From: a virus
Length of the DNA stretch: 20,469 bases
Virus record (IMG/VR): IMGVR_UViG_3300017758_000197
Span: 1 to 20,469 of that record
Reading direction: 5' to 3' (one strand)
The translations under genes were made by a program, and so were the position numbers. Shown piece by piece: positions 1,985-11,577 of the stretch. Under the pieces are notes generated by a model. The model ran no database searches. It worked only from the letters and a program-made list of their open reading frames with translations, and was not told the DNA's origin. The first letter of the stretch is position 1, and each line of letters begins with the position of its first letter.

Positions 1985-2620
1985 TTAATTAATCTCATTT
2001 TCAAATTGTTTTTTTAGTTTTTCTTTTACATTTAAATTCTTTTGTAGGTGCTGATGAATTTTAGACATTGTTTTCGGTTTCTTTGCTTCTCTTTTCTCCC
2101 AAGTTACGATTGCTTGTTTCCAATTTTTCATTTTATTACTTCCAACCATCCAACCTTTTGACTCATAAAAAGCAATGAACGCTTCAGCATCTATATTATT
2201 TTTCCTTTCTAAACAATAATTATTTACTTCATCTAAAGTAGGTTTTTTAAAAAATGCCTTTTTATTACTATCTGTAAGATTAGTATTAGTTATATTTATA
2301 TTAGTATTATCTGTACTTATATTTATACTACCCTTGTCTTTTAGATTGATGTACCTATGCATTATTTCTTTAGTACCTTGTCTATATATAACAGTTCTAT
2401 CTATATAGCCATTATCATCTAACATTTTAAGCCAATTTTGAACTGCTCCCCTACTAACTTCATACAGTCTGCAAAAGTATTCAGTTGAAGCTGTACATTT
2501 ACCATTCATATTGCAAAGGGCTGTAATTTCTGCATAAAGTAATTTAGCGTTTGGTGTTAGCTTTTTGCTGTATCTTACTTCAGCAGGAATTATAGCATAG
2601 TAGCTTGGCTTTTCTTTCAT
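1985..2620 (-). CDS. Winged-helix replication initiator-like protein
   Basis: A 211-residue protein. Residues 20-75 form a helix-turn-helix or winged-helix domain of the HTH_36 / phage replisome-organiser type (LTPNAKLLYAEI, SRGAVQNWLKMLDDNGYI). A low-complexity linker follows at 99-120, rich in Asn, Thr, Ile and Ser, and then a C-terminal domain at 126-175 (PTLDEVNNYC, GWMVGSNKMKNWKQ) like the C-terminal module of DnaD-like or lambda-O-like phage replication proteins. The ATG overlaps the upstream stop by 4 nt (ATGA). The likely role is binding origin DNA and recruiting helicase or its loader. The DNA for the linker carries direct repeats (see the repeat at 2279-2327), which resembles the placement of the lambda origin inside gene O. 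The family link is firm for the HTH and weaker for the C-terminus. Confidence 0.8.
   Translation of the reverse strand: MKEKPSYYAIIPAEVRYSKKLTPNAKLLYAEITALCNMNGKCTASTEYFCRLYEVSRGAVQNWLKMLDDNGYIDRTVIYRQGTKEIMHRYINLKDKGSINISTDNTNINITNTNLTDSNKKAFFKKPTLDEVNNYCLERKNNIDAEAFIAFYESKGWMVGSNKMKNWKQAIVTWEKREAKKPKTMSKIHQHLQKNLNVKEKLKKQFENEIN
2279..2327. repeat. Iteron-like AT-rich direct repeats inside initiator gene
   Basis: On the plus strand ATTAGTATTA occurs at 2279-2288 and 2300-2309, and TTATATTTATA at 2290-2300 and 2317-2327 (27 nt apart, exactly nine codons). They fall in the linker-coding segment of the winged-helix initiator gene and produce the similar peptides INISTDNTN and INITNTNLT. They may be an internal replication origin, or only a low-complexity protein linker. 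Confidence 0.55.
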
Positions 2621-4552: not shown

Positions 4553-4774
4553 TTAATAGTTTTGAATGTAAAGTAAAGTAGCTAAGATTGAAGCTCCTAA
4601 TATACATAAGTGAGCAACTACATCTAACATCTTATTTGTTCTTATTCTCTTTTGCTCTGTTAAATTTACTTCATTATAATTTTGCACTTTGTTTTTAATA
4701 AAAAAGTTTGTCTTTTCTTTTTCATTTAAGAAGTAAGTAGCTCCTGTGTTATTGTTTACGATTTTGTAGTTCAT
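4553..4774 (-). CDS. Small single-pass membrane protein
   Basis: A 73-residue protein. Residues 1-48 are polar and charged (MNYKIVNNNTGATYFLNEKE, then a basic RIRTNK segment), followed by a C-terminal hydrophobic stretch LCILGASILATLLYIQ (residues 56-71) that would be one tail-anchored membrane helix with the bulk of the protein in the cytoplasm. It is the first gene after the control region, about 35 nt downstream of a TAnnTTTG box, so it should be expressed early. The first position of an early operon often holds a host-interaction or superinfection-exclusion gene. No family is recognised. Confidence 0.65.
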   Translation of the reverse strand: MNYKIVNNNTGATYFLNEKEKTNFFIKNKVQNYNEVNLTEQKRIRTNKMLDVVAHLCILGASILATLLYIQNY

Positions 4775-4809
4775 TTCTTAATTATTTAATTATTACTATT
4801 TTAACACAG

Positions 4810-4841
4810 CAAAGATATAAAAAAAAATAGATACTAACATA
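4810..4841 (-). promoter_or_regulatory. Bacteroidota-type promoter of replication operon
   Basis: TATCTTTG at 4817-4810 matches the TAnnTTTG -7 element of the Bacteroidota primary sigma factor. A near match to the -33 TTTG element, TATG at 4841-4838, sits 20 nt upstream. The start site would fall near 4805, leaving about 30 nt of leader before the ATG at 4774. A second exact box, TAACTTTG, is at 4857-4850 but lacks an obvious -33 element. This box is expected by chance every 1-2 kb at this base composition, so location adds much of the support. Confidence 0.6.
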
Positions 4842-4925
4842 ATTATTATCAAAGTTATTAACAATTTAAGTGTTAAGAGTGTTTTTACTAGATAAGCAAC
4901 TTTAAGTGCTGTCTAGTATATTACC

Positions 4926-4956
4926 ATTAAAAAAGTGTAAAAGTGCCTAAAAAGGC
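4926..4956 (-). terminator. Weak terminator-like hairpin after late genes
   Basis: On the minus strand GCCT-TTTT-AGGC (4956-4945) makes a 4-bp GC-rich hairpin followed by ACTTTTACACTTTTTT. It lies about 90 nt after the metallophosphoesterase stop and upstream of the early promoter, where a terminator for the late operon is expected. The short stem makes it weak. Confidence 0.3.
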
Positions 4957-5045
4957 TAAAGGGGTGTGCTATATACTAAAGTATAATACTATTACAATTA
5001 ATAGAAAATAGAATAAAGTAAGCTTAGTTGAGTCTTTTAATTTCA

Positions 5046-6871: not shown

Positions 6872-6953
6872 ATTTACAATTTTTAGAACACCACCCTAAA
6901 CATATTCTTTCTTTAGTCAGAATGTATAATAATTTACATATTAGTCTTTTCAT
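6855..6953 (-). CDS. Possible 32-residue Cys-rich small protein
   Basis: ATG at 6953 to TAG at 6855: MKRLICKLLYILTKERICLG, then WCSKNCKFEKSK. It has an amphipathic or hydrophobic N-terminal helix and four cysteines (C6, C18, C22, C26), which could bind a metal or form disulfides. It overlaps the end of the 53-residue membrane ORF by 20 nt and the DUF5675 start by 17 nt. Together with its two neighbours it fills a gap that would otherwise be empty in a tightly packed genome. It could be a real lysis accessory or a chance ORF. Confidence 0.4.
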   Translation of the reverse strand: MKRLICKLLYILTKERICLGWCSKNCKFEKSK

Positions 6954-7095
6954 ATTTCAGGAATTTATATATAGTAAAACTTATTGCTAGAATTAAAGAA
7001 ACTAGCGTTAGTATTTCGTTACAGTCTGTTATGCTGAACCCTATTGCTGATGCGTTAGCTAACCCTACTTGTAGAGTGTCTTTTGCTTCTGTCAT
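6934..7095 (-). CDS. Small membrane protein, candidate holin
   Basis: ATG at 7095 to TAA at 6934 gives 53 residues. The N-terminal half (MTEAKDTLQVGLANASAIGF) is short and polar to small-residue-rich. Residues 28-46 (EILTLVSLILAISFTIYKF) form one clear transmembrane helix followed by a basic tail LKYEKTNM. An N-out, C-in small protein directly upstream of a lysis-like enzyme resembles a class III holin. An A-rich leader (AAAAAAACAAAACAAA) precedes the ATG. With the two-helix protein at 6129-6329 it could form a holin/antiholin pair. The hydropathy profile makes it more credible than the flanking tiny ORFs. Confidence 0.6.
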   Translation of the reverse strand: MTEAKDTLQVGLANASAIGFSITDCNEILTLVSLILAISFTIYKFLKYEKTNM

Positions 7096-7171
7096 TTTGT
7101 TTTGTTTTTTTATCTAAGTAGGTCTTTAACTTAGTAACATTTTTAGTTTTCGGTTTATAGTGTCTTTTCAT
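7055..7171 (-). CDS. Possible 38-residue basic protein
   Basis: ATG at 7171 shares a base with the stop of the connector-like gene (TAATG) and the frame runs to TAA at 7055. The product is very basic (MKRHYKPKTKNVTKLKTYL, then DKKTKQNDRSKRHSTSRVS) with no hydrophobic core. It overlaps the 53-residue membrane ORF by 41 nt in another frame. Translational coupling argues for it; low complexity and the overlap argue against. A basic virion- or DNA-associated peptide is possible, but no family is known to me. Confidence 0.35.
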   Translation of the reverse strand: MKRHYKPKTKNVTKLKTYLDKKTKQNDRSKRHSTSRVS

Positions 7172-11013: not shown

Positions 11014-11499
11014 TTATTGTCCGTAATATATATAGTTTGTTTCTGTTGGTGCTTCTCTTTGTGTGTATTGAACTTGCTGCGTTCCGTCTTTTTCTGATAA
11101 GTTCATCTTGCCTTTAGTAACTAATCCCTGAACTACTCCTTTAGTGTCAGCAGCAGGACTTAAAACATCATTTTCAGTTGCAGGTGCGTTACCTAAAGAA
11201 ACTGTTACTGTTCCGATCCAACTAACTTCATAAATCTCATACTTATAATATCCGGCAGGAAATATTTTTGTTTCTCCTGTATAAATATTTTGACTTGTAG
11301 CGTCGTAGTTAATACTAATTTTAGTAAACCTATCTTTAATTGTTTCAGTAACGCCATAAGAGTAATAAACAGACTTATCTAAGTCGTTTGTAAATTTAAC
11401 TAAGTGCCTTATCTGAGTAGAAGCAACAGAAGTATTTATACGATTGTCCTCAGTTTGCACAAATATATTAAAGCCTGTTTCTGTTATTGCTTGTATCAT
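11014..11499 (-). CDS. Beta-rich putative structural protein
   Basis: A 161-residue protein from ATG at 11499. A GTG at 11574 would extend the frame by 25 residues but lies inside the terminator hairpin after the tail tube gene, so it is rejected. The protein is strand-rich: GFNIFVQTEDNRINTS, LVKFTNDLDKSVYYSYGV, FPAGYYKYEIYEVSW, then an extended, Gln/Tyr/Thr-rich end (QQVQYTQREAPTETNYIYYGQ). This suits a neck, stopper or head-associated beta protein. I do not recognise a named family. It is the first gene after the terminator, so may be made in smaller amounts than the capsid and tube. Confidence 0.65.
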   Translation of the reverse strand: MIQAITETGFNIFVQTEDNRINTSVASTQIRHLVKFTNDLDKSVYYSYGVTETIKDRFTKISINYDATSQNIYTGETKIFPAGYYKYEIYEVSWIGTVTVSLGNAPATENDVLSPAADTKGVVQGLVTKGKMNLSEKDGTQQVQYTQREAPTETNYIYYGQ

Positions 11500-11549
11500 A
11501 GTTAGTTTGTCTGTTATATAATAGAAATACTTTAAATTTATTTGCTTTA

Positions 11550-11577
11550 AAAAGAAAAAGGAGTGCCTTAGCACCCC
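11550..11577 (-). terminator. Intrinsic terminator after tail tube gene
   Basis: On the minus strand GGGGTGC (11577-11571), loop TAAG, GCACTCC (11566-11560), then TTTTTCTTTT (11559-11550). The 7-bp stem has one GU wobble and a good U-tract. It starts 34 nt after the 11611 stop codon and should reduce transcription into the genes from 11499 downward, so capsid and tube can be expressed above portal and accessory genes. Confidence 0.8.

Follow-up and report, generated by a model that had tools for sequence, protein, structure and literature searches.

Genes and Features of the Locus

The window, which is the whole stretch of DNA analysed (20,469 nucleotides), is a virus record of 20.5 kb whose main genes are encoded on the minus strand. 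These genes encode portal, virion structural and tape-measure-like proteins, a DUF3127 single-strand-binding protein, NinG, a DNA methyltransferase and a replication initiator. The distant DNA matches of the window are mostly Flavobacterium phages, together with some of Nonlabens, Tenacibaculum, Cellulophaga and Polaribacter, which points to a marine member of Bacteroidota as the probable host. Among the GTDB genomes, no close host or prophage was found, and the homologues there were distant ones, mostly in Bacillota. The features of the locus are listed in Table 1.

Table 1. Positions of the initiator gene, its domains and the DNA features within it, and of the neighbouring gene, in the window.
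Feature	Position	Strand	Basis or remark
Replication initiator gene, 211 aa	1985–2620	−	HTH_36 (PF13730) and PHROG initiation-protein families
C-terminal domain (about residues 125–180)	2081–2248	−	PHROG 15768 and 186; common to other phage initiators
Disordered linker (residues 97–122)	2255–2332	−	pLDDT < 50
51-bp AT-rich element, codons 103–119; probable unwinding tract	2264–2314	−	Synonymous sites nearly invariant
ATTAGTATTA, copy 1	2279–2288	+	Within the invariant element
TTATATTTATA, copy 1	2290–2300	+	Within the invariant element
ATTAGTATTA, copy 2	2300–2309	+	Within the invariant element
Half-site 3, AGTACA	2312–2317	−	Direct orientation, type-specific
TTATATTTATA, copy 2	2317–2327	+	Within the type-specific stretch
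Half-site 2, TATACT on the plus strand	2324–2329	+	Inverted orientation, type-specific
Half-site 1, AAGACA	2335–2340	−	Direct orientation, type-specific
HTH_36 winged-helix DNA-binding domain (residues 20–73)	2402–2563	−	Pfam and structure model
Upstream neighbour gene, DnaA domain-IV-like helix-turn-helix	2617–3126	−	Bac_DnaA_C in 17 of 20 homologues, best E 1.6e-8

In the Pfam scan of the initiator, HTH_36 (PF13730) scored 42.8 bits against a curated cutoff of 25, and PF13730 was matched at E ≤ 0.01 by 22 of the 22 members of the initiator family. The protein also matches the PHROG initiation-protein families 19658 and 270 and the DnaD-like family 186, its C-terminal domain being matched by 15768 and 186. 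The DnaD-likeness of this domain is that of the PHROG name alone, and the NCBIfam search returned no meaningful family and no DnaD model. In the structure model, folded parts flank the disordered linker, and the C-terminal part, which is the putative helicase-loading part, is helical. In phages of Porphyromonas and Vibrio, the same C-terminal domain follows unrelated N-terminal domains; one of these phages has its own GGTGACAAACTGTCA repeats in the linker.

The initiator is a two-domain protein of the HTH_36 (PF13730) phage/pPR9 type. It belongs neither to the lambda O family nor to the RepA_N family. The Pfam scan of the initiator gave no O-protein match, the O-like PHROGs 678 and 8540 match it weakly (E of 0.0027 and 0.033), and the Pfam scans of the initiator and its family members gave no match to RepA_N (PF06970). 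The similarity in fold to RepA_N proteins is weak; the top fold matches of the initiator model include the Rep structures 4pt7, 4pql and 5kbj, at E values of only about 0.01–0.05. Profiles of the initiator and its upstream neighbour found no match among the PDB sequences.

The upstream neighbour gene lies beside the initiator gene in 272 of 297 loci. Its product has no AAA+ domain and may bind DnaA-box-like sites. Two intergenic regions elsewhere in the window are also conserved. At 4850–4865, upstream of the early genes, the block ATTGTTAATAACTTTG (minus strand) is almost invariant in the aligned relatives; it contains TTATTAACA (plus strand), which is one base from the DnaA box TTATNCACA, and also TAACTTTG, which fits a −7 promoter element of Bacteroidota. 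The second region, at 6872–7170 between the lysis/early and the structural genes, has DNA matches in 95 loci and is possibly a promoter or packaging region.

Repeats in the Linker-Coding Part

A preliminary description of the window had pointed to direct repeats in the linker-coding part of the initiator gene, and both pairs were found exactly where it had placed them. The two copies of TTATATTTATA, which are 27 nt apart, are the only exact ones in the window, and ATTAGTATTA has one more exact copy at 11310. TRF reports an array with a period of 21 bp and 2.1 copies at 2279–2323. With one mismatch allowed, TTATATTTATA has 4 matches against 3.3 expected and ATTAGTATTA has 12 against 6.8 expected. 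The bare repeats are weak, as such counts are near what AT-rich sequence yields.

Three of the four repeat copies fall within the conserved codons 103–119. The second copy of TTATATTTATA lies just beyond this invariant block, where the sequence differs between types of the DNA-binding domain. The bare repeat counts would fit ordinary low-complexity coding sequence, that is, an Asn/Thr-rich linker written in AT-biased codons, and so would the composition of the genome, which is AT-rich and uses AAT for 85% of its Asn codons. This explanation is weighed below together with the synonymous differences.

Constraint on the DNA of the Element

A codon alignment was made of 80 loci that had been fetched by peptide patterns, none of which reaches codons 103–118 and one of which touches codon 119. 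Codons 103–119 are nearly identical throughout this alignment, and the adjoining codons vary. Some other loci were fetched by patterns touching the element, and the main statistic was therefore repeated on the peptide-pattern loci only, as 49 representatives of less than 92% identity whose retrieval had made no use of the element.

The representatives are related and recombining, so that the constraint figures are descriptive and are not probabilities; the ratio of observed to expected synonymous difference in the element is 0.021, compared with a gene median of 0.69, and it is 0.029 in a larger set of 90. The observed synonymous difference in the element is 0.012, where 0.42 is expected from codon usage. 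In the 49 representatives, the differences from the window sequence are 71 nonsynonymous and 3 synonymous inside the element, and 2362 and 1943, respectively, outside it. The ratio of the element is the lowest among 3,524 segments of 17 codons in the 20 genes of the window with enough relatives, and the next lowest elsewhere is 0.20. Among the codon positions of the element, the second is the most diverse and the third the least, and in the N-terminal part the third is by far the most diverse. Taken together, these results show that selection acts on the DNA.

The low-complexity alternative, which the preliminary description had itself raised, does not survive these results. The constraint is on the third codon positions and not on the protein, the amino acids change more freely than the synonymous bases, and the synonymous difference is far below expectation. 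This alternative is refuted by the synonymous differences unless the alignments are wrong, and its probability is regarded as negligible. That description had also asked for a check of the synonymous positions in relatives; in the same codon alignments, the repeats are kept there almost without exception.

Low synonymous variation was also seen at two other places of the window, both on the minus strand, namely 11014–11574 (codons 12–28; 0.20) and 96–506 (codons 116–132; 0.25). These codons possibly reflect start-site or gene-overlap effects, or further embedded signals.

The variants of the element are modular, the middle and third parts changing as blocks and in frame. One of the rarer forms of the middle part is palindromic, and its changes are matched, as in ATACTAAAGTAT, ATGCTAAAGCAT and ATAATAAATTAT. 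Matched changes of this kind, seen in the short central palindrome of some variants, could point to a role in the mRNA, either as a structure or as a translation signal, but they fit a symmetric protein-binding site equally well. Any hairpin would have about four A/T-rich pairs, and no Rfam match was found. A structure in the mRNA was rejected, and an action at the mRNA level is hardly credible.

The element consists largely of ANT codons, which give TAN repeats on both strands. A DNA pattern for it was found in at least 119 stretches of viral contigs, and all of the 80 analysed lie in frame in initiator homologues. Seven motif patterns for the element, its variants and an adjacent half-site gave 445 matches in the initiator gene and 2 elsewhere in 1.45 Mb, both of the latter in loci of one contig. 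Each genome has essentially a single copy of the element. Duplex stability in the window is lowest at 2280–2330 for stretches of 51 bp and at 2258–2332 for stretches of 75 bp, and both of these overlap the element; at 100 bp, its region is second in instability to 4770–4869.

The AT-rich intergenic region at 4775–5045 raises a different explanation, in which the element would serve a DNA-binding protein, such as a repressor or the DnaA-like product of the neighbouring gene, as an operator or another kind of regulatory site, and the origin would be situated elsewhere, perhaps in this intergenic region. A DnaA-like helix-turn-helix protein is indeed encoded next door, and the intergenic region has both the least stable 100-bp stretch and a short block conserved in the aligned relatives. 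However, the element is nearly single copy per genome and lies within a gene, a long way from the starts of operons; no direct repeats were found in the intergenic region, which looks like an early-operon leader; and the homologous linkers of distant phages show the layout of an origin. An operator is therefore considered very unlikely.

Half-Sites and the Type of the DNA-Binding Domain

Directly upstream of the element, three half-sites of the form NNNAC(A/T) are arranged at 2312–2340 in the orientation + − +. Their sequences go with residue 62 of the initiator. Where this residue is K, they are mostly TTAACA, then TTTACT or TTTACA, then TTTACA or TTAACA; where it is N, they are TGGACA, AAGACA or TAGACA, then TAGACT or TATACT, then TGTACA, TATACA or AGTACA. 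Rare codons are kept at the half-sites: in the K type, 39 of the 49 Asn codons at position 95 are AAC, against a usage of 15%. The recognisable part upstream of the tract thus comprises three type-specific half-sites, or about one and a half palindromic sites, where other phages have 2–4 repeats.

The information on the helix type, with residue 62 excluded, reaches up to 1.0 for residues up to 102, with the peak residue in 91–96. From residue 103 on, the block means are at most 0.17, and the value is 0.02 in 103–108. Since the information ends at codon 103, the helix, the wing and the upstream sites travel together; the AT-rich element is common to all helix types. In part, the linkage of the half-sites to the helix type could simply reflect their proximity on the chromosome. 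Together with the symmetry of the half-sites, the linkage suggests that the half-sites are cognate sites of the initiator.

The sharp stop at codon 103, as well as the C-terminal domains behind unrelated N-terminal domains, would also suit a recombination hinge, that is, a short homology where phages swap the DNA-binding and C-terminal halves of the initiator and which is made uniform by repeated exchange. However, the changes in the element are almost all nonsynonymous, are confined to certain bases and include in-frame block variants, which argues for selection on the letters and not for homogenisation, and the tract is very AT-rich also in distant phages where its sequence differs. The hinge is thus a very improbable account of the element. 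It is compatible with an origin, as exemplified by the lambdoid O genes, in which a recombination hinge and an origin occur together.

A Probable Origin Embedded in the Initiator Gene

The region at 2264–2340 is very probably the cis-acting replication origin of the phage, composed of binding sites and an unwinding tract and placed within the initiator gene itself, where the linker is encoded. The constraint at the DNA level, the very low duplex stability, the near-uniqueness per genome, the linkage of the sites to the domain type and the same layout in distant phages were shown in this analysis. A constrained cis element in the linker-coding part and an easily melted AT-rich tract beside candidate binding sites, which characterise an initiator-embedded origin, are both present. 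Two points count against this reading, namely the second AT-rich conserved region at 4775–5045 and the number of recognisable palindromic sites upstream of the tract, which is smaller than the number of repeats in other phages. The GC3 and AT3 skew of the genes of the window showed no clear switch and is uninformative.

We infer from this arrangement that protein binding, melting, helicase loading and origin firing occur at 2264–2340. In the proposed mechanism, the winged-helix domain would bind the half-sites as a dimer or higher multimer, and the binding would strain the adjacent 51-bp tract, which would open. The opened tract would then let the C-terminal domain and its partners load the replicative helicase. 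The linker peptide would be a mere tether and, because of this, could tolerate whatever the DNA requires.

The preliminary description had suggested that the repeats may be origin iterons in a design like that of lambda O. The repeats are indeed part of the probable origin, but they belong mainly to its AT-rich part, which is probably unwound, and the half-sites at 2312–2340 are the probable sites of initiator binding. The lambda-like design is supported as a layout by the constraint on the DNA and by the distant relatives, but it does not extend to membership of the O family, as the protein is of the HTH_36 type instead.

The tract, which is kept letter by letter and is not merely AT-rich, may be read as a single strand by the C-terminal domain or by the host initiator. 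A broader and rather doubtful proposal, made by analogy with DnaD and DnaA at the B. subtilis origin, joins several of these points. Initiator-embedded origins would carry a codon-phased ANT element (TAN on both strands) for single-strand recognition, read sequence-specifically by the C-terminal domain of the initiator or by the host initiator; the disordered Asn/Thr linker would be a by-product of the DNA code, common to phages of several phyla, and the recognition helix would be exchanged together with its cognate sites, in a single cassette that ends at the element.

The design is already known, and the evolutionary evidence for it is unusually clear here. In the literature searched, outside which most subscription journals lie, no paper describing the clade or the near-invariant tract was found. 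The results give a probable origin at base resolution in more than 100 genomes for a widespread group of uncultured phages, probably of marine Bacteroidota, and synonymous sites frozen in an initiator linker offer a simple sign for finding such origins elsewhere. They also separate the type-specific half of the origin from the near-universal half, and the information in the unwinding tract becomes testable by recoding.

Comparison with Known Systems

When origin DNA is single-stranded, DnaD recognises 5'-TnnT-3' motifs in pairs (PMC10201434). The tract of the window, which reads mostly TAN on both strands, resembles the AT-rich, trinucleotide-periodic single-strand motifs of the DnaA-trio/DnaD element of B. 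subtilis oriC. Its ANT codons, with their change at codon position 2, would fit such an element, but the period of three could equally come from the coding frame, so that a relation to DnaA-trio/DnaD motifs is no more than a possibility.

Among plasmids, pSK41, of the RepA_N type, has its origin inside rep, and the linker is dispensable as protein (PMC5703833). In pPR9, a segment that includes a PF13730 N-terminus replaces the RepA_N domain and origin of pSK41, and the mini-replicon replicates autonomously (PMC5703833). The window resembles pPR9 in the PF13730 N-terminus and differs from both in that they are plasmids.

Among phages, lambda has both its iterons and, after them, an AT-rich tract in the middle of the O gene (PMC7466680). 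The proposed layout in the window resembles that of ori-lambda, which has four iterons and an initiator of a different protein family. In SPP1, oriL is embedded in gene 38 (PMC5499656), a likeness to the window that is taken from the literature only. In 80alpha, an ORF20 mutant was not complemented in trans, suggesting an embedded origin (PMC5499656). The initiator gene ORF20 (gp20) has an annotated putative rep_origin of similar layout, with repeats and a ACTAATAAT-rich tract, and its linker contains the least stable 36-bp stretch of the locus. The DNA-binding domain of gp20 is non-homologous, having no BLASTP similarity to the protein of the window.

Of the phages inspected that have a homologous DNA-binding domain, most show tandem repeats of 21–24 bp in this linker and, after them, an AT-rich tract. 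In seven such phages (five of Lactobacillus/Leuconostoc/Enterococcus kinds of host, one Staphylococcus and one Fusobacterium), the linker repeats are mostly palindromic with a spacing of 22–24 bp, and the AT-rich tract follows, as in GAGAATAATACAAGTATTAATAATACA. Many homologue loci from GTDB show the same layout, and the linker contains the least stable 36-bp stretch of the locus in 8 of the 17 scored. In the cultured Cellulophaga phage phi39:1, three 21-bp repeats, ACCCACGACAAAATTGTCTAC, precede an AT-rich tract, although the locus has less stable stretches than this tract (0.71 percentile). The window is thus like phi39:1 (gp41), Lactobacillus phage CL1, Enterococcus phage B1578 and Staphylococcus phage 8490 in its DNA-binding domain and in the order of sites and tract within the linker. 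Unlike these HTH_36 phages with their 2–4 recognisable repeats, the clade of the window combines three half-sites with a nearly letter-perfect tract of 51 bp.
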